Shown here: positions 14,629 to 29,141 of the stretch, piece after piece | How the letters are laid out: each line of letters begins with the position of its first letter | Position numbering within the stretch: position 1 is the stretch's first letter | DNA from: Salisaeta longa DSM 21114 | Lineage (GTDB): Bacteria; Bacteroidota; Rhodothermia; Rhodothermales; Salinibacteraceae | Length of the DNA stretch: 64,000 nucleotides | NCBI RefSeq assembly: GCF_000419585.1 | Contig: NZ_ATTH01000001.1 | Span: 2,581,001-2,645,000 of the forward strand | Direction: 5' to 3' | Translations under genes and position numbers: made by a program | The notes under the pieces: generated by a model | Seen by the model: the letters and a program-made list of their open reading frames with translations, nothing else | Told to the model about the DNA's origin: nothing | Databases searched by the model: none

Positions 14629-15492
14629 ATGGGCAAAGTCATTGCCATTGCAAACCAGAAGGGCGGCGTGGGCAAAACCACGACGGCCATCAACCTGGCG
14701 GCTTCGCTGGCCGCTAGCGAGTACTCAACCCTGCTCATCGACATCGACCCGCAGGCCAACTGCTCCTCGGGCATTGGCGTTGACCCGCAAGACGTTGACG
14801 CCTCGGTGTACGAGGTGCTGATTGGCGACGTGAGCATCGACGAGGCGGCGCGCTCTACCGAACTTCCGTTTTTAGACCTCGTGCCCAGCCACATCAACCT
14901 GGTGGGCGCCGAGATTGAGATGATTGACGTGATGGAGCGCGAGCAGATCTTGAAGCGCGCCCTGAAGCGCGCCCGCCGCAAGTACGACGTCATCATCATC
15001 GACTGCCCGCCCTCGCTGGGGCTGCTCACGTTGAACGCCCTCACGGCGGCCGACGGCGTGCTGGTGCCCGTGCAGGCCGAATATTTTGCGCTGGAAGGCC
15101 TGGGGCAGCTGCTGAACACCATCAAGATTGTGCGGCAGCACCTGAACCCGGAGCTGGCGCTGGAGGGCGTGTTGCTGACCATGTTCGACTCGCGCCTGCG
15201 CCTTTCGAACCAAGTGGCCGACGAGGTGCGCCGCTACTTTGGCGACAAGGTATTCCAGACGATTGTGCAGCGGAACGTGCGCCTCTCGGAAGCGCCCAGC
15301 TTTGGCAAACCGGTCATTTTGCACGATGCAAGCAGCAAGGGCGCCCGCAACTACATGGCCCTGGCCCGCGAGATTCTGGACAACAACCCGGACATCGCGG
15401 GCGCCGCGGCTGGCGATACGACCGACGATGCGCCACCCCTGCCTGATGCCTCCGATGCAACACCCGCCAACGGCTTCTCGTTTTCGGAGTGA
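14629..15492 (+). CDS. parA: Chromosome partitioning ATPase ParA/Soj
   Basis: This 287-residue ATPase binds DNA non-specifically and drives segregation of ParB-parS complexes. It starts with a deviant Walker A box ([14 protein letters not shown], residues 10-23), has the Walker A' [11 protein letters not shown] and the Walker [11 protein letters not shown]. The C-terminal 30 residues are an Asp/Ala-rich tail. The start at MGKVIAIAN matches the family. parB follows 42 bp downstream. In many bacteria parAB lies near oriC, but I found no parS or origin signature in this window. Confidence 0.95.
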
Positions 15493-15534
15493 TGACAGGC
15501 TTTTCGCCGCTTTACGACACACCAACGCTTTAGT

Positions 15535-16476
15535 ATGGCTAACAAACGTGCATTAGGCAAAGGCCTCAGCGCCCTGCTTCCGTCCGACGAACAGGACGAC
15601 GGGTCCTCTGGGGCCGACGCGCCGGCGCGCGCTGAGGGCAGCCGGCTGCTTGGGCGCGTGGCCGAAGTGGCCGTCGAGGCGATACGGCCCAACCCGTACC
15701 AGCCGCGGCAGTCGTTTAGCGACGAAGCCCTGGGCGAGCTGGCCGCCTCCATCGAGCAGCTGGGCATCATCCAGCCCATCACCGTGCGGGCGCTAGGCGG
15801 CGGGCAGTTTGAAATCATATCGGGCGAGCGCCGCTGGCGGGCCGCGCGCCGGGCGGGGCTGGAGCATGTGCCTGCCTTTGTGCGCAAGGCCGACTCCGAG
15901 CAGATGCTGGAGATGGCCCTTGTGGAAAACGTCCAGCGCGAGGAGCTCAACCCCATCGAGGTGGCCATGGGCTACCAGCGCCTCATCGACGAATGCAGCC
16001 TCACCCAGGAGGAGGTGTCCGAAAAGGTGGGCAAGAGCCGCTCGACGGTGGCCAACTTCCTGCGCCTCCTGAAGCTGCCGCCCCGCATTCAGGCGGCGCT
16101 GCGAGACGGCGACATCGCCCAAGGCCATGCCCGCGCGCTCATCGCCATCGACGACACCGAGGTACAGCTTACGTTTTTGCAGCGCACCATCGCCGAGGAG
16201 TGGTCGGTACGCACCGTAGAGCGCGAGGTGCGCGCGTGGCACGAGGCGCAATCTGCCGACGCCAGTGACGACGATGATGATGACGCGCCGCCCGCGCCCG
16301 ATCCGGCCCCGTCGCGCAACGACCTGCAGCTCGAAGACCTGCGCAGCAAGCTCCGCTCCCGCTTCAGCACACAGGTGCGCATCCAGCACAAATCCAACGA
16401 CGAAGGGCGCATCGAGCTCGCCTACTACTCGCAGGAAGACCTGGAGCGCCTGATGGAATTGCTGCTTGATGCGTAA
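15535..16476 (+). CDS. parB: Chromosome partitioning protein ParB/Spo0J
   Basis: This 313-residue ParB is the parS-binding CTPase of the segregation system. The N-terminal nuclease-like domain shows IRPNPYQPRQSF, the box GERRWRAARRAG and ALVENVQREELNPIE. It is followed by a helix-turn-helix around SEKVGKSRSTVANFLRLLKLP. An acidic linker (DASDDDDDDAPP) separates it from the C-terminal dimerisation domain. It is co-transcribed with parA. The downstream gene overlaps its stop codon, which suggests translational coupling. Confidence 0.95.
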   Translation: MANKRALGKGLSALLPSDEQDDGSSGADAPARAEGSRLLGRVAEVAVEAIRPNPYQPRQSFSDEALGELAASIEQLGIIQPITVRALGGGQFEIISGERRWRAARRAGLEHVPAFVRKADSEQMLEMALVENVQREELNPIEVAMGYQRLIDECSLTQEEVSEKVGKSRSTVANFLRLLKLPPRIQAALRDGDIAQGHARALIAIDDTEVQLTFLQRTIAEEWSVRTVEREVRAWHEAQSADASDDDDDDAPPAPDPAPSRNDLQLEDLRSKLRSRFSTQVRIQHKSNDEGRIELAYYSQEDLERLMELLLDA

Positions 16477-17367: not shown

Positions 17368-18687
17368 ATGTTTATGACCATGCCCGACCGTACGACGCCC
17401 GCCTCAGAGCCCACGCCTGCTGCCTCTCCCGAGGCACCAGCCGACGCGTCTAAACCGTCGCTGTTTGACAAGTGCCAGCGCTTTTTTGACCCCTCGGGCG
17501 ACTACGCACAGTCGAAGGAAGCCGACCTTTACCCATACTTTCGCCCCATTGAGCGCAACGATGGCTCCCGTGCCGTCATGAACGGTCAAGAGCTGGTGAT
17601 GGCCGGGTCGAACAACTACCTCGGGCTCACGTCCGATCCCCGCGTGAAGGCGGCCGCCCAAGAGGCCATTGCCAAGTACGGCACGGGCTGCACCGGCAGC
17701 CGCTTCCTGAATGGCACGCTCGACTTGCACTTGGAGCTGGAAGAGCGTCTGGCCGACTTCATGGGCAAAGAGGCGTGCGTTCTGTTTTCCACCGGCTACA
17801 TGACCAACGAAGGCGTCATTGAGGCCGTGGCCGGTCGGGGCGATGTGATCTTCTCCGACAAGGACAACCACGCGTGCATCAACGCGGGCACGCGCACCAG
17901 CCTGGCCGACACCCGTCGCTACCGCCACAACGACATGGCGCACCTCCGGCAGATGCTGGAGCGGGTGGACGAGGAGCGCCCCGCGGCGGGCAAGCTCATC
18001 ACCACCGATGGCGTCTTCTCGATGAGCGGCAAAATTGCCCGGATCCCCGAGCTCCTGCAGCTTGCCGACGAGTTTGATGCGGCCCTCATGCTCGACGACG
18101 CGCACGCCATTGGCGTCGTGGGCCCCGGCGGCACCGGCTCGGCGGCCACCTTTGGATTGAAGGACGAGGTGGACCTCATCACGGGCACCTTCTCGAAGAG
18201 CTTCTCCTCGCTGGGCGGCTTTGCCGTGGGCGACGAGGATGTCATCGAGTTCATCCGCCACGAGAGCTCGCCCCACGTGTTTAGCGCGTCGATGCCGCCG
18301 GCCAACACGGCCACCGTGCTGAAGTGTCTGGAGATTCTGCAGGACGAGCCGGAGCGCCTCGACCGCCTCTGGGAGATTTCGGAATACATGCGCGACGGGT
18401 TCCGCGAGCTGGGCTTCGACGTGTGGGACAGCGAGTCGCCCATCATCCCCGTGGTGGTGGGCGACCTGGAGACGTGCTTTACCTTCTGGCGCGACCTCAT
18501 CGAGGAAGGGGTGTTTGTGAACGCGGTGGTGCCGCCCGCCGTGCCGCCCGGGCAAGCCCTCATGCGCACGTCGTACATGGCCACGCACACCGACACCGAG
18601 CTCGACCACATCCTGTCGGCCTTCCGCAAGGTGGGCCTGAAGCACGGCGTCATTGGCTCGAACGGTCACCACGCCAACGCGGCGTAA
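17368..18687 (+). CDS. Alpha-oxoamine synthase, serine palmitoyltransferase/CapB-like
   Basis: This 439-residue PLP enzyme condenses an amino acid with an acyl thioester. The PLP lysine lies in GTFSKSFSSLGGF near residue 275. The substrate-binding segments YLGLTSDPRVK, GTGCTGSRFLNGTLDLHLELEE and DDAHAIGVVGPGGTGS are conserved. The segment ADLYPYFRPIE before the core is typical of bacterial serine palmitoyltransferases rather than BioF or Kbl. Possible products are 3-keto-sphinganine, or a capnine-type precursor if cysteate is used; Salinibacter is known for sulfonolipids. The ~45-residue Pro/Ala-rich N-terminus is unusual. A GNAT gene follows, which could act in N-acylation. Confidence 0.82.
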   Translation: MFMTMPDRTTPASEPTPAASPEAPADASKPSLFDKCQRFFDPSGDYAQSKEADLYPYFRPIERNDGSRAVMNGQELVMAGSNNYLGLTSDPRVKAAAQEAIAKYGTGCTGSRFLNGTLDLHLELEERLADFMGKEACVLFSTGYMTNEGVIEAVAGRGDVIFSDKDNHACINAGTRTSLADTRRYRHNDMAHLRQMLERVDEERPAAGKLITTDGVFSMSGKIARIPELLQLADEFDAALMLDDAHAIGVVGPGGTGSAATFGLKDEVDLITGTFSKSFSSLGGFAVGDEDVIEFIRHESSPHVFSASMPPANTATVLKCLEILQDEPERLDRLWEISEYMRDGFRELGFDVWDSESPIIPVVVGDLETCFTFWRDLIEEGVFVNAVVPPAVPPGQALMRTSYMATHTDTELDHILSAFRKVGLKHGVIGSNGHHANAA

Positions 18688-18713
18688 CCCTACAGGCTGC
18701 TCTGTGTAGCATG

Positions 18714-18750
18714 AAGCGCGCTCGGGTCTCCGCCGGGCGCGCTTTTGTTG
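18714..18750 (+). terminator. Rho-independent terminator after the SPT-like gene
   Basis: The stem GCGCGC (18716-18721) pairs with GCGCGC (18737-18742), extended by CGG/CCG, and is followed by TTTTGTTG. It stands 29 bp after the synthase stop and before the GNAT gene, so part of the transcription may end here. Confidence 0.7.
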
Positions 18751-18786
18751 TGTCGCCGTCGTGCTCACCATCGCCCCTGTCCCCTT

Positions 18787-19920
18787 ATGGCCGTTACCGT
18801 TCGCCCCGTCGCGGGCCGCGCCGATCGCAAGCGCTTCATCGACCTGCCCTTTCAGCTGTACCCCGGCACCTACCCGGCCTGGGTGCCGCCGCTGCGCCGC
18901 GACGTAAAGCACACCCTCGACCCGTCCAAGAATCCATTCTTCGAGCACGGCGCGATCGAGCAGTTTCTGGCGACCGACGCCTCGGGTACAGTGGTGGGGC
19001 GCATCGCAGCCATCGAGAATGGCATGCACCTGCAAAAGTACGACGACGGGGCGGGGTTCTTCGGCTTTTTTGAGTGCATTGAGGATTACGCCGTGGCCGA
19101 GGCGCTTCTCGACACGGCGGCCGCGTGGCTCCGCGACCGCAACCTGACGCACATGCGCGGGCCGGCGAACCCGTCGCTAAACGACACCGCCGGCCTGCTG
19201 GTGGATGGCTTCGAGGAAGAACCGTTCATCCTGATGCCCTACAACCCGCCGTTCTACGAGGACTTTTTGACGCGCTACGGCTTTACGCGGGCCATGACGA
19301 TGTGGGCGTACTACGTCCACAAAAAGTACGTGCAGGTCGACCGCCTCAAGCGCGGCGCGGCCCTCGTACACCGGCGCACGCCCGGCCTGTCCATCCGCAC
19401 GCTCAACATGGACCGCTTCGCAGAGGATGCGCGCACGATCCTCGACATCTACAACGATGCGTGGTCGGACAACTGGGGCCACGTGCCCATGACCGAGGCC
19501 GAGTTTGAGCAGCTCGCCGGCCAGATGAAGCAGATTGTAGAGCCCGACCTGGTCTTCTTAATCGAGCACGAAGGCACGCCCGTGGCGTTCTCCATCACGC
19601 TGCCCAACATCAACCGGGCCCTCAAGGAAATTCCCAGCGGGCGGCTCTTTCCGCTGGGCCTGCCCAAGCTGCTGGCCTACGCGCACTTCGGCATCTACGA
19701 ATGCCGCATGCCGCTGATGGGCGTGCGCAAGGCGTTTCAGGGGAAAGGCCTGGACGCGCTGCTGGTGCTCGAAACGATTGTGGAGGGGCCGAAGCTGGGC
19801 TTTGACGCGTGCGAGATGAGCTGGGTGCTGGACAGCAACGACCGCCTCAAGAACCACGTCGAGTCGCTGGGCGCGGTGGCGGACAAAGAATACGCCATGT
19901 TCGAGCGCGGGCTGTCGTGA
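18787..19920 (+). CDS. GNAT-fold acyltransferase-like protein
   Basis: This 377-residue cytosolic protein belongs to a GNAT-like family often labelled hypothetical or YghO-like. It begins VTVRPVAGRADRKRFIDLP and contains the acceptor segment NPPFYEDFLTRYGF. A C-terminal acyl-CoA-binding-like region reads VRKAFQGKGLDALLV and ends SLGAVADKEYAMF. I chose the ATG giving MAVTVRP. From memory, GNAT-type proteins serve as bacterial ceramide synthases in Caulobacter. The position just after an SPT-like synthase therefore suggests N-acylation of a long-chain base. That is inference; the terminator between the genes argues for partly separate expression. Confidence 0.6.
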   Translation: MAVTVRPVAGRADRKRFIDLPFQLYPGTYPAWVPPLRRDVKHTLDPSKNPFFEHGAIEQFLATDASGTVVGRIAAIENGMHLQKYDDGAGFFGFFECIEDYAVAEALLDTAAAWLRDRNLTHMRGPANPSLNDTAGLLVDGFEEEPFILMPYNPPFYEDFLTRYGFTRAMTMWAYYVHKKYVQVDRLKRGAALVHRRTPGLSIRTLNMDRFAEDARTILDIYNDAWSDNWGHVPMTEAEFEQLAGQMKQIVEPDLVFLIEHEGTPVAFSITLPNINRALKEIPSGRLFPLGLPKLLAYAHFGIYECRMPLMGVRKAFQGKGLDALLVLETIVEGPKLGFDACEMSWVLDSNDRLKNHVESLGAVADKEYAMFERGLS

Positions 19921-20317
19921 GGGGCGCTATATACTGTATGAAGCATCAACGAGCGAACGCGGGCGGGCCCCGGTGGTGTGAAACCGCACACTGGGCGCGG
20001 TGGACGTGATCGCCCTGGGGCGTCGCATGCTGGAAGATGGAGCCGGCGATGGCCGTGGGCGACCAGCATTAGCGAAGGATACGTTGACTTTTTCATGAGC
20101 GGTACCTAAGGTACATGAAGATCCCATTGCGCATGGAAAAACAAAGCTCCAGGAATCACAACGTCCTATGCCAACCGAGTTGACATAGCACCGGGCCCGC
20201 TACAGCCATCGCATTGAGGTTCAGGTGTTTGCGCGAAATGATAGATGCGTGCTATGTCAAGTGTGTTGATATAAGCATAGGTTATGCGGCGCAGGCGTTG
20301 CCGCTTGACCGGAACGG
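19921..20317. other. Left border of the low-GC island
   Basis: This ~400 bp stretch contains no supportable gene. It holds an imperfect 24 bp inverted repeat (20168-20191 against 20249-20272) with a perfect 12 bp core (20180-20191 and 20249-20260). A GTTATGC box at 20281-20287 is identical to the 3' box of the attC-like sites further right. If functional, that box would mark the left end of the first cassette. Base composition drops from here. Confidence 0.5.
20168..20272. repeat. Imperfect inverted repeat at the island border
   Basis: The two 24 bp arms match at 19 positions and flank a ~57 bp loop. The size resembles a recombination site, but there is no unpaired base in the inner arm and the outer boxes do not match the other sites. 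It may be a diverged attC, an operator or a transcription stop for the convergent minus-strand gene. Confidence 0.45.
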
Positions 20318-21355
20318 TCAGTTGGACAGATTTTCAGGAATGTCGATCAGCAGTGACTTATCTGCTTCGACAGCGGCGACGCGCTCGTTGTATAGATCAA
20401 GCAATGCTTTGAATTGCTTCTTGAAGGCGTCTCTCGAAAAGGCGGCAATCTCATTCAGGTTCTGCCCGATGAAGCCTTCGATGGATTGCACGCTGATATT
20501 TGGATCATGGGTCTCATGGGCAATCTGCCGGATGCTGCCCTTCATGGAATCCCTGACCATCAAGTGCACTTCATAGCCTGCCCGCAAGTCCTTTACGCAT
20601 TTCTGATAGTGCCCGTCCATCGGTGCAACTGTGACGTGGAAAACGGAATCGTTGATCTCGAAGTCGCCGCGCCGCCCGGTCTGCACGTCCGCCGTTGAAT
20701 AACCGTGGTTTGGAATCTCAATGTCTGGCAGGCGGAGTTGCAACTTTGCGCCAACGAGATGTTGCGCAACCGCACCGGCTTTGCTCTCTGCCTTGTCGAG
20801 CGCATCGGCTATGATTTGCGTCGCGTTGCGCGTCGGATCGTACTCGACAGCAATTCGAGCTCGCTTGCGCCATTCACATTTGGCGTATTCGCCCGCCACC
20901 CAGACCAGATGCTCCAGCATCCGCGTCAGAACGGCATTGCGGGCTTCATCGCCCAACTCGTCAAGACGGGTAGCTCGAAGCGCTTCGAGAAGTTCTTCCG
21001 CCGCGTGAAGCGAGCCAGAACTTGTGCGTCCTGCCTCTGCCGGAATGGGCCTCGTCTCGCCAAACCGCGCGAGTATTTTAGAGACGTTGTGCGGCGTCTG
21101 CATTTTGACCTGTGCGCCAGACGACGTAGTGTGCGCTTTTCGGTCGAGGTTGTAGTTCTTCAGGAGCCGGTCAAGCGTAATCAGCGCGGCGTACACGCGG
21201 CTGCGAACGGGAAGCTCGCCGTGCCGCTTTTGCGCCTCGCACCACGAGCCGAAGTGACGCAGCGCCTCTATCTCGCGCTCGTCCGCGAACGCTCCTTCGA
21301 TTTCGTCTCCACTGAAATTGAGGCGTAACTGATTGTCAACATTTTTTCTGTTCAT
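20318..21355 (-). CDS. DUF4928-like protein of a restriction locus
   Basis: This 345-residue soluble protein resembles the DUF4928 family, which occurs beside restriction-modification genes; I recognise this only tentatively. Visible segments are RSRVYAALITLDRLLKNYNLD, LPDIEIPNHGYSTADVQTGRRGDFEINDSVFHVT and a C-terminal helical part. The GDFEI...VFHVTVAP stretch resembles the beta-strand core of a PD-(D/E)XK-like fold. It is divergent from the DUF3883-type gene, with a 96 bp shared promoter region. I chose the ATG giving MNRKNVD; a GTG five codons upstream is also possible. No methyltransferase gene is nearby. Confidence 0.5.
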   Translation of the reverse strand: MNRKNVDNQLRLNFSGDEIEGAFADEREIEALRHFGSWCEAQKRHGELPVRSRVYAALITLDRLLKNYNLDRKAHTTSSGAQVKMQTPHNVSKILARFGETRPIPAEAGRTSSGSLHAAEELLEALRATRLDELGDEARNAVLTRMLEHLVWVAGEYAKCEWRKRARIAVEYDPTRNATQIIADALDKAESKAGAVAQHLVGAKLQLRLPDIEIPNHGYSTADVQTGRRGDFEINDSVFHVTVAPMDGHYQKCVKDLRAGYEVHLMVRDSMKGSIRQIAHETHDPNISVQSIEGFIGQNLNEIAAFSRDAFKKQFKALLDLYNERVAAVEADKSLLIDIPENLSN

Positions 21356-21451
21356 GGTCGTACCTTGCACATTTTGTCATGACAGGATCGTAAATCAAGC
21401 TCGTTGCGTTGGTAACGTGCTTCCAACGACCAAAGCGGCAAAGAAGGCGCC

Positions 21452-22237
21452 ATGAAAGCAATGGACGACTGCAACGCACTCGCGCTCGTTGTGGCCTACT
21501 ACATCTCGCGGTTCGATGCGGCGGCTTATGAACGGCTTGGGCGTAACACAAAGAAGTCCGCCCACAGAGCCGTCGGGCAGGCGCTTGGCGTAAAGGCGAG
21601 CACTGTGAAAAATATGCGGGACGAGTTCGATCCGCTGCACGACAACCCGCGTAAAGGGTGGCACAAGCGCGACCTGCGCCCCAGCCGGCAGAAGATCGTT
21701 GAGATGTTCGGCGAAATGGATGAGGAAGGACTCTACGACGTGGTGCGCGGCATTTTGCAAGATCCGACTTTCCGCGACGCAGACGACGTGCAGGAAGTTG
21801 TAAGAGAGGTGATAGAAACCGACAAAAAGCCCGTGCGAGAGTCGGCTTCACCGGCTTCTCGAATGAAAACGGGACGCATGGCTGAAGACTTCTTCATCGA
21901 CTTCCATGCTGAAACCAACCGACCTGCGCCCGGCCTTCTGCACGACAGGCGCTACCATGCGTGCGGCTACGACTTCGAAATTCAGGACTCATCGGCCACC
22001 ACGTTCGTAGAGGTGAAAGGAATGGCGGAACAGAGTGGAGGAATTCTATTCACGGATAAAGAATGGCGCGTGGCCTCTCAGAAATCCGGCGCTTACGTTG
22101 TGGCGCTCGTTCGCAATCTCGTCGCCACACCGGACGTCAGTTTCATCTGGAATCCCACTGCCTCTCTGGAACCGAAGCAACGCCTCTACACGACGATTCG
22201 AAGGTCGTGGACGGTTCCAGGAGCGCAGCTTTCTTAG
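21452..22237 (+). CDS. DUF3883-containing protein, probable restriction endonuclease subunit
   Basis: The C-terminal ~110 of 261 residues match the DUF3883 pattern: RMAEDFFIDFH, then GYDFEIQDSSATTFVEVKG, then GGILFTDKEWRVA and YVVALVRNL. The D...E-V-K arrangement is a PD-(D/E)XK nuclease-like core. The N-terminal half (NTKKSAHRAVGQALGVKASTVKNMRDEFD) looks like a DNA-binding helical domain. With the divergent DUF4928-like gene and the Vsr remnant it suggests a type II restriction locus. A cytosine methyltransferase would be expected with Vsr but is missing. An AAGG sequence upstream of the ATG could be the ribosome binding site. Confidence 0.6.
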   Translation: MKAMDDCNALALVVAYYISRFDAAAYERLGRNTKKSAHRAVGQALGVKASTVKNMRDEFDPLHDNPRKGWHKRDLRPSRQKIVEMFGEMDEEGLYDVVRGILQDPTFRDADDVQEVVREVIETDKKPVRESASPASRMKTGRMAEDFFIDFHAETNRPAPGLLHDRRYHACGYDFEIQDSSATTFVEVKGMAEQSGGILFTDKEWRVASQKSGAYVVALVRNLVATPDVSFIWNPTASLEPKQRLYTTIRRSWTVPGAQLS

Positions 22238-22279
22238 GTTCATCAGGTTGCTTGTGGACTGTCCCTCAAGACACTGTGA

Positions 22280-22606
22280 GAAAGAGATTTCGGTTCCTTT
22301 GAGTTTCACGCCGATGATTTGCCGGGCAAACCGGATCTTGTTGAGCGGGAGGCTCGTGTTGCAATTTTCTTGGACAGTTGCTTCTGGCACGGTTGCCCGG
22401 AACATTTACGAATGCCTGAATCCAACCGAGATTATTGGGAAAAGAAAATCAGCCGCAACAAGCGTCGAGACCGAGAAGTTACCAATGAACTTGAGGAAAA
22501 AGGTTGGCTCGTAAAACGCATTTGGGGACACTCGATCAAAAAAGACAGAGCGCGAAAATGGTGGCTTACGCGGCTTGAGACCCTGATAGCTGAAAGAACA
22601 GGATAA
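22280..22606 (+). pseudogene. vsr: Very short patch repair endonuclease (Vsr), N-terminally truncated
   Basis: The reading frame opens after a stop at 22277-22279. It encodes GSFEFHADDLPGKPDLV, then CFWHGCPEH, NRDYWEKKISRN and GWLVKRIWGH, all hallmarks of Vsr, which nicks T:G mismatches made by cytosine methylation. About 30-40 N-terminal residues of the family (the SRIRGKDTKPE region, which includes a catalytic Glu) are missing. No other frame in the 42 bp before it supplies them. There is no in-frame ATG before the core; TTG at 22319 is the only plausible start. The absence of a methyltransferase supports a decayed locus. An attC-like site begins 7 bp after the stop. Confidence 0.75.
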
Positions 22607-22613
22607 ATGCGCC

Positions 22614-22737
22614 ACATAACAATTCATAGCAGCCGACGAAGGGCTTCAAAGTCTGATGCGATTGCGCGGACGTTGGCGCATCCGTAGCTTTTTCTAACCG
22701 CACTACCGCCCTTCGCGGCTGAATTCTGCCGTTATGC
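22614..22737 (+). other. attC-like recombination site A
   Basis: The outer boxes are ACATAAC (22614-22620) and GTTATGC (22731-22737), extended to nine of ten complementary bases by flanking GCC/GGC. The inner arm at 22631-22644 pairs with 22708-22720 over 13 bp, leaving a single unpaired A at 22636. This matches the classical attC pattern of class 1 cassettes, where the inner arm also reads GCCG-A-CG. Spacing and total length (124 bp) fit attC sites. The boxes differ from RYYYAAC/GTTRRRY at one position. Confidence 0.82.
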
Positions 22738-22809
22738 GGCTACATCCGAACACGGGCGATGCTGTTGTAGTTGAAGACTATCAGTTCCAGCAAAAGGAAG
22801 GTGCCAGAC

Positions 22810-23007
22810 ATGAGTGTGAAAGAAATCGAGAATGCAATCACCCAGCTTTCTCCTGAGGAACTGGCCGAGCTTTCGGCGTGGCTCGCGGATTACCAGGCGA
22901 ACGTCTGGGACAAGCAGATTGAACGAGACCTTGACGCAGGACGATTGGATGCCCTCTTGGAGGAGGTCGACGAAGAGTATGAAGCTGGAGAAGCGAAACC
23001 ACTGTGA
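22810..23007 (+). CDS. Antitoxin of a RelE/ParE-type pair
   Basis: This 65-residue acidic protein starts MSVKEIENAITQLSPEELAELSAWL. That helix is typical of small antitoxins encoded just before RelE/ParE toxins. Its stop codon overlaps the toxin start by 4 bp (GTGA), so the two are translationally coupled. I placed the start at the ATG before SVKEIEN; a frame 13 codons longer lacks similarity. The antitoxin would neutralise the toxin and probably autoregulate the promoter. It stands just after attC-like site A. Confidence 0.72.
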   Translation: MSVKEIENAITQLSPEELAELSAWLADYQANVWDKQIERDLDAGRLDALLEEVDEEYEAGEAKPL

Positions 23008-23267
23008 AGCATTTCACTCTTCCGCGATTCTGGAAGCATTACCGCAATCTGCCCGAAGACATTCAGGAGATGGCAGATCGGAAATTCGAACTGCTCAAGT
23101 CCAATCCACGTCATCCGTCCCTGCACTTCAAGAAGATCGGAAATAAGGAGCAGCTATGGTCGGTGCGCGTCGGTCTGCATTACAGAGCGTTGGGGAGAGA
23201 GAAGCCTGAAGGGATCGTGTGGTTCTGGGTTGGGACGCACGCTGAGTACGATAGACTCATTTCTTGA
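23004..23267 (+). CDS. RelE/ParE superfamily toxin
   Basis: This 87-residue basic protein has the RelE/ParE fold pattern: RFWKHYRNLPEDIQEMADRKFELLKSNP, then LHFKKIGN, then WSVRVGLHYRALGRE and WFWVGTHAEYDRL. Arg and His residues of the C-terminal sheet match those of RelE-type mRNA interferases or ParE gyrase inhibitors; the sequence does not settle which. It begins at GTG, overlapping the antitoxin stop. It is followed 13 bp later by attC-like site B, so the pair forms one compact cassette of about 670 bp. Confidence 0.8.
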   Translation: MKHFTLPRFWKHYRNLPEDIQEMADRKFELLKSNPRHPSLHFKKIGNKEQLWSVRVGLHYRALGREKPEGIVWFWVGTHAEYDRLIS

Positions 23268-23280
23268 ACGCCAATCCGCC

Positions 23281-23410
23281 GCATAACCCACCGTTGCACC
23301 TGACGGTGGGCATTTCGGCGTCGTTTGCTGCTGTGCCCTTGCCAGAACGGTTTCCTTCATTTTAGGGACGCTGCCAGAGATTCCACCGCAGGTGAACTTT
23401 GCCGTTATAC
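23281..23410 (+). other. attC-like recombination site B
   Basis: The outer boxes are GCATAAC (23281-23287) and GTTATAC (23404-23410). The inner arm CACCTG-A-CGGTGG (23297-23309) pairs with 23383-23394 over 12 bp, leaving one unpaired A at 23303, in the same place as in site A. Total length is 130 bp. The agreement of two sites with unrelated arm sequences but identical architecture is what identifies the family. Confidence 0.82.
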
Positions 23411-23431
23411 CGCTTAAACTAAATCACTGAG

Positions 23432-23593
23432 ATGTCAGAAGTTTTTCAATATAAATACGAAGACCTTTTCAATCTAACTATTCAAGCTCTGAAAAATTTG
23501 GGCGGATCAGCTTCTATATCAGAAATTGAAGATCAGGTTAGTAAAATTCTCAATTTATCAGATGAAGAGATTAACGATATTCAAAAAAAGTAG
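23432..23593 (+). CDS. Mrr N-terminal-like winged-helix fragment
   Basis: This 53-residue open frame is much more AT-rich than its surroundings. It resembles the N-terminal winged-helix domain of Mrr-type restriction enzymes: YEDLFNLTIQALKNLGGSASISEIEDQV followed by LNLSDEEINDIQ. The domain normally precedes a catalytic PD-(D/E)XK domain, which is absent. The fragment begins 21 bp after site B and ends where a VapC remnant begins. It may be a domain left by recombination or a small cassette protein. Confidence 0.5.
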   Translation: MSEVFQYKYEDLFNLTIQALKNLGGSASISEIEDQVSKILNLSDEEINDIQKK

Positions 23594-23752
23594 AGCAAAA
23601 CTAAGATACAGGTTAGCTTGAGACAGAAATTACCTTTTCATCACCGCGACCCATTCGACCGTATGATCATCGCGCAGGTGCAGGTGGAAGCCCTGTCGGT
23701 CGTGAGCAAGGATGAGGCGTTCGCGGACTACGACATTGACCTTCTGTGGTAA
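23594..23752 (+). pseudogene. VapC (PIN-domain toxin) C-terminal remnant
   Basis: The frame from 23594 to the stop at 23750-23752 encodes LPFHHRDPFDRMIIAQ and then VVSKDEAFADYDIDLLW. This is the C-terminal third of a VapC ribonuclease, including the DPFDRM and S-x-D acidic positions. There is no start codon before the core, and the preceding codons derive from AT-rich DNA. The N-terminal Asp-containing strand of the PIN domain is missing, so the protein would be inactive. Confidence 0.72.
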
Positions 23753-23763
23753 GACCAAGAAGC

Positions 23764-23880
23764 GCTATACCCCATCTCTGCTGCGGACGGCGGGCTGGTG
23801 CTCGCTGTCAAAAGGTAGCACCTCACGTGCCGCCTCTGTAAGGTAGCAGTACCCGCTTCCGCAGAGCTACACCGTTATGC
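23764..23880 (+). other. attC-like recombination site C (degenerate)
   Basis: The 3' box is GTTATGC (23874-23880); the 5' box GCTATAC (23764-23770) is a weaker match. The inner arm at 23781-23794 pairs with 23852-23864 with two mismatches and again one unpaired A (23787). Length is 117 bp. It follows the VapC remnant directly. Confidence 0.55.
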
Positions 23881-23973
23881 CGCTATACTCGCAGCTGTGA
23901 ATCATCCGATGGGTAGGGTGCGTTTTATTTTCATTGTTGCTTCATGCCCTCTCCTTTCGATGCAGGACGTGCC

Positions 23974-24204
23974 ATGAAACGCGAAGAGATTTTCCACCGG
24001 GATCCAGACATTCAGGGTGGGGCCCCCGTCTTCACAGGGACGCGCGTTCCGGTCGACTCGCTTGTTCAGCATCTTCGGCATGGCAAGCGCCTCGACGAAT
24101 TTATCGACGACTTTCCGAGCGTTCGGCGCGAGCAGGCCGAAGCGTTTTTGCAGCTGGCCGAAGAGGCCGCGCTTGCTGAAGATCACCCCCCGCGTGCGGC
24201 ATGA
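23974..24204 (+). CDS. DUF433 family antitoxin
   Basis: This 76-residue protein matches DUF433, which forms pairs with DUF5615 PIN-like proteins. The pattern is RDPDIQGGAPVFTGTRVPVDSLVQHLRHGKRLDEFIDDFPSV, followed by a helix RREQAEAFLQLAEE. The domain is a small winged or ribbon DNA-binding antitoxin. The stop codon overlaps the downstream start (ATGA), so the two are coupled. I used the ATG giving MKREEIF; an in-frame ATG ten codons upstream is possible. Confidence 0.8.
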   Translation: MKREEIFHRDPDIQGGAPVFTGTRVPVDSLVQHLRHGKRLDEFIDDFPSVRREQAEAFLQLAEEAALAEDHPPRAA

Positions 24205-24548
24205 CGGTTCTTTTCGATGAAAACATCCCGCGCAAGCTCAAGTGGCGCCTCATGGAGCGAGGCATTGAGGTAGTGACCGTTCCGGAACGCGGATGGGCCG
24301 GTGTAAAGAACGGAGCGCTGCTCGACCGGAACGGAGCGCTGCTCGACCGGGCGGAAGAAGCGTTCGACGCATTGCTCACGATGGACCAGGGCATTGAGTA
24401 CCAGCAGAATTTTGAAGGGCGGGAGCTGGCCATTGTGACGGTCGTAGCGCCAACCAACGAGTACGAGACACTTCTTCCACTAGTACCTGAAATTGTGGAT
24501 GCAGCGCGGAAAGCAACAAAAGGCGCAGTCATATCCGTAGCGGCATAA
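24201..24548 (+). CDS. DUF5615 PIN-like toxin
   Basis: This 115-residue protein has the DUF5615 pattern: MTVLFDENIPRKLKWRL with the conserved Asp6, then VVTVPERGWAGVKNG, then ALLTMDQGIEYQQNF (second acidic site). It is the predicted ribonuclease partner of the DUF433 antitoxin. The segment NGALLDR is duplicated in frame by a perfect 21 bp tandem repeat, which may alter the loop before the second helix. The end of the gene overlaps attC-like site D. Confidence 0.8.
   Translation: MTVLFDENIPRKLKWRLMERGIEVVTVPERGWAGVKNGALLDRNGALLDRAEEAFDALLTMDQGIEYQQNFEGRELAIVTVVAPTNEYETLLPLVPEIVDAARKATKGAVISVAA
24309..24350 (+). repeat. Perfect 21 bp tandem duplication in the DUF5615 gene
   Basis: The unit at 24309-24329 is repeated exactly at 24330-24350 and doubles the residues NGALLDR in frame. 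Exact identity suggests a recent slippage event. Confidence 0.9.
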
Positions 24549-24662
24549 CACAACGCTGCAGGTGAAAAGCCTGCCTGCGGCTTTGCCGCTTTCAAGTGCT
24601 GGCACCACATCTGCTCGCTTCACAGTTGGAAACAGGCTTGCATCTGAGCCTCCACGTCATGC
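24543..24662 (+). other. attC-like recombination site D (decayed)
   Basis: GCGGCATAAC at 24540-24549 pairs with GTCATGCCGC (24656-24665) at nine of ten bases. The 3' box reads GTCATGC instead of GTTATGC, changing the crossover triplet. The inner arms pair only partly, around GCAGGTG and AAGCCTG segments. Length is 120 bp. I read it as a decayed site that is probably no longer recombinogenic. Confidence 0.4.
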
Positions 24663-24708
24663 CGCAGCAATCGCCATGAGATTCTTCTCAACTCAGGAAG
24701 TGAAAGCC

Positions 24709-24958
24709 ATGCCCCTGCGCACCGCCCTGCTCCTTCTTGCTGTGCTTTCTGGACGTCTGATTCAGCCACCTCAGCAGGCCGTTGCCCAATTCGGAGTCGA
24801 AGAAAAGCTACGTCATATTCTACTTCGGTGCTACGTCGTGCGGGTCCTGTAACCGTCCAGAGGTCATCGACGCCGTAAAGAAAATCGCATCAGAGTTTGT
24901 GCGGAGCGAGGAAGTGGTCCTCGAACCAAGCGCAGCGGCTGGGAGTCTAAATTGTGCT
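24709..24958 (+). pseudogene. Frameshifted thioredoxin-like exported protein
   Basis: The first frame encodes a signal peptide, MPLRTALLLLAVLSG, ending in QAVAQFG. About 30 bp later the +1 frame continues with SYVIFYFGATSCGSCNRPEVID, a thioredoxin-like strand with a CGSC redox motif. One frameshift near 24790-24815 would join them. The thioredoxin part breaks off after ~50 residues at the start of the next module, so the gene is both frameshifted and truncated. Confidence 0.55.
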
Positions 24959-24984
24959 TCCCTCTACTTCAGCCCGTTGCTGTC

Positions 24985-25206
24985 ATGAGCAAGTCCTACG
25001 AAATTGCCAACGAGCAGGGCGATATCGTCGTTCGCTTCAACGGCGAGCTCGTCAATCACGACGCGCTCACGCGGCTTCTTGACTTTGTCGAGCTCGAATC
25101 GATTCGCAAGCGCAGCCAGCTCAGCGCAGAGGATGCGGCGAAGCTAGCGGATGAGATCGACCGCTCGGTCTGGGAGCGCATTAAACCCAAGTACGCAGCC
25201 TCCTAA
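24985..25206 (+). CDS. Putative antitoxin of a PIN-domain pair
   Basis: This 73-residue protein (SKSYEIANEQGDIVVRFNGELVNHDALTRLLDFVELESIRKRSQL) ends in a helical segment, EDAAKLADEIDRSVW. It stands 3 bp before a PIN-domain gene on the same strand. I do not recognise a named antitoxin family. Size, acidity, and tight linkage to a PIN toxin make an antitoxin role likely. Confidence 0.6.
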   Translation: MSKSYEIANEQGDIVVRFNGELVNHDALTRLLDFVELESIRKRSQLSAEDAAKLADEIDRSVWERIKPKYAAS

Positions 25207-25209
25207 CGT

Positions 25210-25626
25210 GTGAGTGGGCCTGTTGTCGTTGACACCAACGTTCTGTTTTCCGCTCTTCTGCGCAAAAGCGCACACTTCACGGAGGTACTTCTGACCTCCA
25301 ACCGGCGTTTTCTGATCAACGAACTTGCCGTGGTTGAGCTCTTCAAGCACAAGGGGAAGATCGTGCGGCTCAGCCGTCTTGGCGACGAGGATATCGTGCA
25401 CCTTTTCTACGAGCTGTTGCGCGAATTGGAGCTTTACAAGGAAGAGCTTATCGCGCCGGCCAACCGGGCCAAAGCCGCTGAGCTATGCCAGGACGTGGAC
25501 CTAACCGATGCGCCGCACGTGGCCATTGCGCTTGAAACCGGAGAACGCCTCTGGACAGGCGATCAGAAACTGAAAGAAGGGCTCCGGGCCAAAGGATTCT
25601 CCCGATTTCTCGAACCGCCGCGCTAG
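25210..25626 (+). CDS. PIN-domain toxin (VapC-like ribonuclease)
   Basis: This 138-residue PIN domain begins at GTG with VVVDTNVLFSALL (first Asp at residue 8) and has an acidic residue in INELAVVELFKHKGK. It carries the second cluster DLTDAPHVAIALETG and ends with LWTGDQKLKEGL. These four acidic positions form the metal site of PIN ribonucleases. It is likely toxic unless bound by the 73-residue partner upstream. Attc-like site E begins 11 bp after its stop. Confidence 0.82.
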   Translation: MSGPVVVDTNVLFSALLRKSAHFTEVLLTSNRRFLINELAVVELFKHKGKIVRLSRLGDEDIVHLFYELLRELELYKEELIAPANRAKAAELCQDVDLTDAPHVAIALETGERLWTGDQKLKEGLRAKGFSRFLEPPR

Positions 25627-25637
25627 TCTCCAGCCCC

Positions 25638-25752
25638 ATATGACCCAGCACTGCTGCCGACGACGGGCAGCGGCTAATTTCTGACGGCGGCATTTCGGTT
25701 GCTGGCGCTGCGCCCTTCCATTGCCCTTTGCGGCAGAGATCATCCGTTATGC
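25638..25752 (+). other. attC-like recombination site E
   Basis: The 3' box is GTTATGC (25746-25752) and the 5' box ATATGAC (25638-25644) is degenerate. The inner arm TGCCG-A-C at 25655-25661 pairs with the complementary arm at 25718-25736, leaving one unpaired A (25660) as in sites A and B. Length is 115 bp. It is the rightmost site I can find. Confidence 0.68.
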
Positions 25753-26794: not shown

Positions 26795-27520
26795 ATGGAC
26801 GTTGCGTTTGTGTACTTCGACATCGACGATACGCTGCTTGACCACCGCCACGCCGAGCGCGCGGCCCTCGCGGACGTGCGCACCCGCTACCTGGAGACGT
26901 TTGGACGCTATTCCGTCGATGAGCTCCAAACGCTTTATCACACCATCAACGCGCCGCTGTGGCGGCAGTACGCGCAGGGGGCCATTGACAAAACCGACGT
27001 AAAGGACCAGCGCTTTGTGAAGCTTCTGGAAGCGGTGGAGGCGCCGCACGCCGATGCGGCCCGCGTGGGCAGCTACTACATGCAGCGCTACGGCGCCCAC
27101 TGGCGCTTCGTCCCCGGCGCCCACACGGCGTTCGAGGCCATTGCGCAGCGGTACCCGGTGGGCCTGCTCACCAACGGCTTTGCGGAGGTGCAAGCCCAAA
27201 AGCTGAAGCAATTTCCGGTGCTGGCGGAGCGCGCGCAGGCCGTGATCATCAGCGAGGAAACCGGCTACATGAAGCCGCACCCGGAGGTGTTTGCGCAGGC
27301 CAGCGCGGCCGCCGAGACGCCGCCGGAGCGCATCTTGTACGTGGGCGACTCCTTTCCCTCGGATGTACAAGGTGGGCAGCGGGCCGGGTGGCGCGTGGCC
27401 TGGTACCTGCGCGACGAGCCGCCCAAAGACGCCACCACCGACGCCCGCGGCTTCGCGTTTACGTCGTGGGCAACGCTTCGCGAGCGGCTGGGGCTTCCCG
27501 CTGCCGAATCCGCTGCGTAA
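26795..27520 (+). CDS. HAD-family hydrolase, YjjG-like nucleotidase
   Basis: This 241-residue HAD phosphatase has motif I FDIDDTLLD (nucleophile Asp9, acid Asp11), motif II LLTNG, motif III around TGYMKPHPEVF (Lys) and motif IV YVGDSFPSD. The layout is like YjjG, a pyrimidine 5'-nucleotidase that removes non-canonical nucleotides. The start is the ATG giving MDVAFVYFD. Its last 62 bp overlap the 3' end of the convergent epimerase gene. Confidence 0.85.
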   Translation: MDVAFVYFDIDDTLLDHRHAERAALADVRTRYLETFGRYSVDELQTLYHTINAPLWRQYAQGAIDKTDVKDQRFVKLLEAVEAPHADAARVGSYYMQRYGAHWRFVPGAHTAFEAIAQRYPVGLLTNGFAEVQAQKLKQFPVLAERAQAVIISEETGYMKPHPEVFAQASAAAETPPERILYVGDSFPSDVQGGQRAGWRVAWYLRDEPPKDATTDARGFAFTSWATLRERLGLPAAESAA

Positions 27521-28952
27521 GCGCCCGCAGCATGCCGCGGAAGACCCATCGGTGCACCGGGGCCACCAGGTACCAGTAGAGCGTGCCCCACAGCCCGCGC
27601 GGCTCAAAGAAGACCGTCTGCGTAATGCGCGTCTCCGCTGCGGCGGGCGTCACCTCGTACTGAAGCCATGCCCGCCCCGGCAGCTTCATCTCGGCGCGAA
27701 ACCGTACCAGGCGGTTGGCCTCTAGCGCCTCAACCCGCCAGAAGTCGACGGCATCGCCGGGGCGCAGGGTCTCCGCATCGCGGCGGCCCGCGCGAAATCC
27801 GACGCCGCCCAGCAGTTGATCGATCCGTCCGCGCAGGCGCCAAAGCGAATCGGCATAGCCCCAGCCGTTGCGTCCGCCCAGCCGCTCAATTTCCGCAAAC
27901 GCCGCCGCAGGCGAGGTCTGCACCGTAGCGGTGCGCGTCTCCCGAAAGAGCCCTTCGGTCACCTCCAGCGTCGGCGTATCGTCGGGGGCTGAAGGAACGG
28001 ACGACTGCGCGCTGTTCCACACCGTGGGCAAATCGCCGCTCGCGGCGCGCCGCAGCGCCAGCCGCACCGCCGCCTCGTAGCTGATGGGCCGCACGCTCGG
28101 AAACATCGTCCGTGCCACCTCGGGCCGGTCGACGGTCACTTCGTTGTCGAGCCCCTCGATGAGCGGCCGCGCGATGGTCGACGACACCGGCGTGACGAAA
28201 CCCACCCAGTACGACGAAAGCCGCGGCGTAAGAAACGGCACGTTGACGATGCGCCGCTTCAGCCCGCGCACCTTCGCGTAAATCTGAAACATATCGCCGT
28301 AGGTGAGCACGTCGCTGCCGCCAATCTCGATGGTCTCGCCGGTGCTCTCGGGGGTGGAGAGCGTCGCGACGAGGTACTGCAGGACGTTGCGGATGGCGAT
28401 GGGCTGCGTGGGCGTTTGCACCCAGCGCGGGCACAGCATGACGGGCACGCGCTCGGTGAGCGACCGCACCAGTTCAAACGACAGGCTGCCCGATCCTACA
28501 ATCACCGCCGCCCGCAGTTCGGTGACGGGCACCGGGCCCTCGCGCAGCACGTCGCCGGTTTCGAGCCGGCTGCGAAGGTGCTTCGATTGCTGCTCGCCCT
28601 TGGGCTGGATGCCGCCCAGGTAGATGATGCGCCCCACGCCGGCGTCCGCGGCTGCCGCACGCACGTTGGTCGCGGCCATCCGGTCGCGTTCGGCAAACGA
28701 CGCCCCGGCGCCCAGCGAATGGATGAGATAGTACGCCGCGTCGATGCCTTGCATGGCGGGCCCAACCGTGTCGCGCTCCAGCGCATCGCCCTCCACAATC
28801 TCCACCCGATCGGCCCACGGGCGCGCCTGTACGCGGCGGGCGTCGCGCACAAAACACCGCACGCGGTAGCCCTCCCGCAGCAGGCATGGCACCAGCCGGC
28901 CGCCCACGTATCCCGTGGCGCCCGTGACCAGAATGTGTTTAGCTGCTGCCAT
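27459..28952 (-). CDS. SDR-type NAD(P)-binding protein with DUF2867 domain
   Basis: This 497-residue protein has two parts. Residues 1-~330 form an atypical short-chain dehydrogenase with the NAD(P) motif VTGATGYVGGRLV (about 6-18) and IIYLGGIQPKGEQQSKHLRSR. Residues ~340-480 form a DUF2867 domain (WGYADSLWRLRGRIDQLLGG, then LWGTLYWYLVAPVHRWVF). This combination is conserved in many bacteria and is often called NAD-dependent epimerase/dehydratase; no substrate is established. The start at MAAAKHILVTG matches the Rossmann fold. It overlaps the convergent HAD gene by 62 bp. Confidence 0.85.
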   Translation of the reverse strand: MAAAKHILVTGATGYVGGRLVPCLLREGYRVRCFVRDARRVQARPWADRVEIVEGDALERDTVGPAMQGIDAAYYLIHSLGAGASFAERDRMAATNVRAAAADAGVGRIIYLGGIQPKGEQQSKHLRSRLETGDVLREGPVPVTELRAAVIVGSGSLSFELVRSLTERVPVMLCPRWVQTPTQPIAIRNVLQYLVATLSTPESTGETIEIGGSDVLTYGDMFQIYAKVRGLKRRIVNVPFLTPRLSSYWVGFVTPVSSTIARPLIEGLDNEVTVDRPEVARTMFPSVRPISYEAAVRLALRRAASGDLPTVWNSAQSSVPSAPDDTPTLEVTEGLFRETRTATVQTSPAAAFAEIERLGGRNGWGYADSLWRLRGRIDQLLGGVGFRAGRRDAETLRPGDAVDFWRVEALEANRLVRFRAEMKLPGRAWLQYEVTPAAAETRITQTVFFEPRGLWGTLYWYLVAPVHRWVFRGMLRALTQRIRQREAPAAREALPTT

Positions 28953-29141
28953 GGTGCGGGGTCGTGTTGTGCTATTCCATTTGTTCTCTGAACGGACCAC
29001 ACGCCCTTCCGTGCCCGCGCGACACCATTGTTAAGGTCCGCGGCCGAATTACAGGAATATAGCACCTGCACAAGAACTCCTGCGGTCGCGCATACATTTT
29101 GATTGACACGCTGCGATTCCTTCATCTAATCCAACTGCCCC

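Follow-up and report, generated by a model that had tools for sequence, protein, structure and literature searches.

We propose that two neighbouring genes of Salisaeta longa DSM 21114, located in a stretch of 64,000 nucleotides of contig NZ_ATTH01000001.1 (positions 2,581,001 to 2,645,000, hereafter the window), each encode an enzyme dedicated to the synthesis of bacterial ceramide, a reading to which we give a probability of roughly 85%. In the proposed pathway, the first enzyme, Spt, with PLP held on K277, would convert L-serine and a long-chain acyl thioester to 3-ketosphinganine with the loss of CO2, while the second, a tandem-GNAT enzyme of the bCerS/CerS kind, would move a second acyl chain onto the free amine. 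The reduction, either before or after acylation, would fall to a CerR-type SDR whose gene lies elsewhere in the genome. The observed basis of this reading consists of sequence membership, active-site residues, a predicted fold, gene linkage, co-occurrence and the presence of a CerR candidate, and it is from these that we would infer the reactions, which acyl donors are used, whether acylation precedes reduction, and what head group the lipid finally carries.

The gene pair and its surroundings

Both open reading frames were confirmed where the initial annotation had placed the pair (Table 1), on the same strand and separated by a gap of 99 bases. The GNAT frame as a whole spans 18745-19920 (+), with a likely ATG start at 18787. 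The nearest named relatives are Salinibacter altiplanensis and Salinivenus. Between the two genes lies a terminator-like hairpin (the RNA of 18705-18760 folds at -27.9 kcal/mol, z -2.87), and a shared transcript of spt and the GNAT gene is therefore not to be assumed. Related intergenic stretches, of which 18 were examined, show a comparable hairpin in 7 cases, including L111, L113 and both Salinivenus loci; the Salinibacter altiplanensis stretch has none. A scan for sigma-70 promoters was not above chance, with one found against 0.8 expected.

Table 1. Features of the window and of the organism's own genome. Positions carrying the prefix G000:C1 refer to the genome, all unprefixed positions to the window.
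Feature	Position	Strand	Basis
spt-like gene, alpha-oxoamine synthase (PLP-dependent), 439 aa	17368..18687	+	Pfam, PDB and NCBIfam scores, site residues, tree
bcerS/cerS-like gene, tandem-GNAT N-acyltransferase, 377 aa	18787..19920	+	YghO homology, predicted fold
terminator-like hairpin, intergenic	18713..18745	+	13 pairs in scan, T-rich tail after
DUF4928/type II restriction-enzyme-like gene	20318-21370	-	
NOV_C-domain protein gene	21452-22237		
possible Vsr-like fragment	22319-22606		by eye
two small genes resembling a toxin-antitoxin pair	22771-23267		by eye
PIN-type genes	24201, 25210		
CerR candidate	L104 1474-2490 = G000:C1:1846920-1847906		profile match
separate Kbl (glycine C-acetyltransferase)	G000:C1:2401282-2402427		NCBIfam over cut-off

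Genes for ParA and ParB occupy 14629-16476; immediately after them come a DUF5683 gene and then the spt pair. Directly downstream of the pair, over 20200-25700, the G+C content is 49-59% per kb, as opposed to 61-66% before. This stretch, which holds the restriction-enzyme-like, toxin-antitoxin-like and PIN-type genes of Table 1, is perhaps an acquired defence/toxin island.

Probable assignment of the two enzymes

Judged by its sequence, the synthase groups with the serine palmitoyltransferases (SPT) and not with Kbl or BioF. It matches the Pfam family Aminotran_1_2 (E 1.6e-55). Among solved structures it comes closest to the Sphingobacterium SPT chains 8guh/3a2b, which give 409 bits along query residues 49-422; the cysteate-C-fatty acyltransferase 28eh gives 234 bits and PDB chains of BioF 207 bits at best. 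Sphingomonas SPT chains reach at most 291 bits, slightly above chains of BioF/Kbl (282) and Kbl (273). The top NCBIfam model is that of the Bacteroidota SPT, NF047600, with 491.1 bits; because this score is under the curated cut-off of 640, the equivalog label is not claimed. The BioF/Kbl-type models give 325-388 bits, with the synthase falling below both the BioF cut-off (377.9 vs 426.45) and the Kbl cut-off (325 vs 493), and the remaining two SPT models, at 388 and 315 bits, are no better than these.

At the active site, H168, D243, H246, K277 and R400 do not vary among the 25 oxoamine synthases or the 43 class sequences compared, and as a set they cannot tell SPT apart from Kbl and BioF; we take K277 to be the PLP lysine and R400 the substrate arginine. 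Residue D244, next to the conserved D243, is Asp, Glu or Gly elsewhere. A further active-site position, according to passages of PMC9304779, separates the cysteate-using SulA, where it is Lys281, from SPT, where it is alanine, and here the window synthase carries A307. Across the 25 rows this site is Ala in 18 (all of them SPT-side), Asn in the four of Kbl type and Thr in the three BioF, and the alanine is kept in each of the 43 class sequences compared, these being the ones with the locus available out of 146 genomes. The same division is seen in a tree of the 25 synthases, built without a CapB/SulA row and with branching inside the SPT side only partly resolved, where 18 SPT-side rows, the window synthase included, stand against 7 BioF/Kbl rows with support of 100/99. 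The window synthase falls in a Rhodothermia branch together with Aureispira. Since one SPT-side row is a Priestia synthase without known function, which has the same alanine, the branch by itself is not proof of SPT function. In essence, the synthase has the catalytic-site residues and the diagnostic alanine of the Sphingobacterium SPT (3a2b/8guh) and the Bacteroidota SPT family, but is unlike them in its Rhodothermia branch, in its score under the SPT model cut-off and in its adjoining GNAT acyltransferase gene.

The GNAT protein, on the strength of sequence comparison, is a homologue of the bacterial ceramide synthase family CerS/bCerS, which agrees with the initial annotation of an SPT-like synthase beside a GNAT protein of that kind. 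Its full-length alignment with E. coli YghO spans 382 aa, with 33.5% identity and an E-value of 7e-76. In passages of PMC9386255, yghO is listed as the counterpart of Caulobacter CC_1154, an acyl-CoA N-acyltransferase (CerS/bCerS) needed for dihydroceramide, while the function of the E. coli gene is there called only possible. The link between our protein and CC_1154 runs through YghO rather than through a direct comparison with the Caulobacter sequence. Identity to the homologues of Rahnella, Sphingomonas, Rubrobacter, Streptomyces and Aureispira is 34.6-39.4%, and a tblastn search of a plasmid collection returned GNAT homologues with at least 80% query coverage in 44 records, YghO among them. 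With CerS/bCerS (CC_1154, YghO) the protein has in common the full-length YghO homology and the linkage to spt, as well as its predicted tandem-GNAT fold, whereas it is set apart by an identity of 33.5-35.5% to the three proteobacterial homologues and by the hairpin, which may separate the transcripts here.

Pfam gives sub-threshold matches only (GNAT PF00583, E 0.0033; FemAB_like, E 0.035), and phmmer against the PDB yielded nothing meaningful (E 1.1 and 1.6). The predicted structure is a tandem GNAT with a mean pLDDT of 93.8, from a 46-row alignment, for which the best PDB fold match is 7q3a (Z 25.9, rmsd 3.2, 304 aligned residues), followed by the tandem GNAT 5kga (Z 23.3). Lower in the list, with Z ~16, are the N-myristoyltransferases, enzymes whose reaction likewise places a long acyl chain on an amine. 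Known members of CerS/bCerS presumably share the GNAT fold as well, although a fold shared on the evidence of a predicted model does not show function. The family PF04339 (FemAB_like) had also been considered as a handle on the Caulobacter CerS and was dropped, there being no match to it in the own genome at E 0.001 and its connection with CerS being unestablished.

Linkage, co-occurrence and a candidate reductase gene

Homologues of both the spt-like and the GNAT gene are present in all 146 class genomes examined, and in 138 of them the two are adjacent on one strand in the order spt-GNAT. The eight genomes without adjacency include one genus (three genomes), two with gaps of 2.7 and 6.0 kb, and one contig-end case. 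In this count, G119, G140 and G142 enter with partial SPT matches, G140 through its second fragment (contig C35, beside the GNAT gene) and not the slightly better one on C40. The presence and adjacency of the two genes across the class are far beyond chance. Because both homologues occur in every class genome examined, we predict that ceramide-type lipids belong to the core of the membrane throughout the class; a literature search for ceramide in this class gave no paper among the matches listed. While the gene pair is of a known kind, its adjacency across the class is modestly new. According to passages of PMC11334938, Bacteroidota that produce sphingolipids do not have the three ceramide genes near one another, and the window pair is an exception to this scattering for two of the three.

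Eighty named loci were compared as well. In the 40 loci L110-L149 (52-76% identity), the synthase lies at most 417 nt upstream in 37 and 2.7 kb upstream in one, and was not found in two. In the other 40, it lies at most 417 nt away in 10, further upstream in 10 and on the opposite strand in four, and no synthase was found within the stretch covered in 16. In thirty of the 80, the synthase is further up, on the opposite strand or absent, rather than at most 417 nt away on the same strand. On Rubrobacter and Streptomyces plasmids, and likewise in four of five Gemmatimonadota-titled loci, spt is followed by the GNAT gene and then by a CerR-like SDR gene. The plasmid loci of E. coli, Rahnella and Sphingomonas have genes for an acyl carrier protein, spt and an SDR within about 6 kb of the GNAT homologue, with a fatty acyl-AMP ligase also near the homologue in E. 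coli and Rahnella.

The association extends to the rest of the phylum. Among 222 genomes outside the class, a strong GNAT match is present in 145 of the 151 that bear SPT as against 3 of the 71 that lack it, at thresholds (E <=1e-90 for SPT-like, E <=1e-62 for GNAT) that were set post hoc on rounded E-values and with kinship ignored. The six SPT-bearing genomes that miss a strong GNAT match comprise two without any match and four with a weak one. Where families are mixed, f22, f23, f25 and f48 fit the trend (f25 with some overlap), while f27 and f40 break it and hold all three of the SPT-lacking, GNAT-bearing genomes.

For the third activity of the proposed pathway, the own genome offers a single clear candidate. 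Against a profile of six SDRs, called CerR-type from their position beside spt, it scores 293 bits, the next protein scoring 135; its gene is unlinked, some 750 kb from the spt-GNAT pair. By eye, it is preceded by a patatin-like gene on the opposite strand and followed by what may be an exosortase-type membrane gene. An SDR with a C-terminal extension that is encoded within the window (27459-29000, minus strand) was rejected as CerR: its matches are mostly to the NAD fold and reach at most 50 bits to Rubrobacter, whereas CerR-type proteins give at least 87 bits among themselves. Whether acylation or reduction comes first is a matter of debate for Caulobacter, as passages of PMC11087976 and PMC11324152 make clear.

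Halocapnines and alternative readings

The initial annotation had offered the pair as the source of either a sphingolipid or a sulfonolipid. The sphingolipid half is upheld by the SPT grouping, the YghO homology and the linkage, and the sulfonolipid half is not, so that the data favour ceramide as the product of the window pair. Published halocapnine keeps its carboxyl group, and a decarboxylating synthase would not leave one. According to the text of PMC5167729, halocapnines occur in members of Salinibacter, Salinivenus and Salisaeta, and Rhodothermus has mainly DPG and PE, while a table of the same paper gives halocapnine for Salinibacter ruber and Salisaeta longa and not for iranicus or luteus. 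Passages of PMC6508672 call halocapnine synthesis not well defined. The only oxoamine synthases found in the own genome are the window synthase and Kbl, and the genomes of altiplanensis, iranica and lutea, none of them a species with halocapnine in that table, hold two each, with no third found. Across 12 family genomes, such matches number two in 11 and one in the remaining one. Halocapnines are reported in Salinibacteraceae, yet only an SPT-type enzyme and Kbl are seen in the genomes examined, which sharpens the question of their origin.

One answer would be a promiscuous synthase in Salinibacteraceae that makes ceramide from serine and halocapnine from cysteate or some other sulfonated amino acid, a reading that overlaps with our own and that we consider unlikely. 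It would account for the lack of a further lipid-type oxoamine synthase in the genomes examined, and a poorly defined halocapnine route leaves room for it. Against it stand the carboxyl group of halocapnine and the fact that the three named genomes searched come from species outside the table's halocapnine producers. Moreover, a shift of the active site specific to Salinibacteraceae, sought in the 43 class sequences, was not found at catalytic sites; only two core sites, both non-catalytic, distinguish this family from the other class sequences compared. The supply of cysteate also bears on the matter, and a search for a cysteate synthase had been suggested by the initial annotation. TIGR03844 has no match in the own genome. 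Of 27 family genomes, 14 being at least 90% complete, none passes the cut-off of the CapA model NF053679, but none of 14 controls does so either, which makes it a test with no positive control. The best own-genome match to the CapA model exceeds the cystathionine beta-synthase cut-off, and the own-genome PALP-family scan covered four of five loci, L096 (TrpB-like by eye) being left out. There is, in our estimate, an equally slim chance that a single SPT-type synthase of Salinibacteraceae starts both ceramides and halocapnines, with the CerS-type neighbour acylating both. If true, halocapnines would represent a second, independent invention of sulfonolipid synthesis.

Less probable still is the sulfonolipid pair proper, in which a CapB/SulA-type synthase would make 3-ketocapnine and the GNAT protein would N-acylate capnine, giving halocapnine-type lipids. 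The reports of halocapnines in the three genera speak for it, as does the finding that the own genome and its three named relatives show a window-type synthase and a Kbl-like one. The window synthase does belong to the same oxoamine synthase family as SulA/CapB (Alistipes, Capnocytophaga; 28eh) and has catalytic residues in common with them (passages of PMC9304779). In contrast to these enzymes, it has A307 in place of Lys281, with alanine throughout the class sequences, it scores far lower against 28eh than against SPT, and the searches for both known types of cysteate synthase came back empty, with the limits on the CapA test given above. Salinibacteraceae also differ from the rest of the compared sequences at the two non-catalytic sites only, even though Rhodothermus is described with chiefly other lipids. 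These points make the sulfonolipid alternative improbable for the window pair.

That the synthase is instead a Kbl- or BioF-type enzyme beside an unrelated GNAT neighbour, an identity that the initial annotation had set against its own proposal, is highly improbable, for while all these enzymes form one superfamily and their raw scores overlap, the reading is contradicted by the scores below both cut-offs, the tree, the A307 site, the linkage and co-occurrence with the GNAT gene, and the separate Kbl of the genome, its second oxoamine synthase (636.6 bits vs a cut-off of 493).

Two observations concern other members of the superfamily. In locus L002 (1501-3687, minus strand), an NAD-dependent epimerase-like gene immediately precedes that of a Kbl scoring over its curated cut-off, a layout that resembles the arrangement for threonine breakdown; the epimerase is left unnamed by NCBIfam, its best model being D-erythronate dehydrogenase at a score below cut-off. 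Some other genomes of the order (G003, G006 and G099, family f2) have a third oxoamine synthase, with 42-43% identity to the window synthase.
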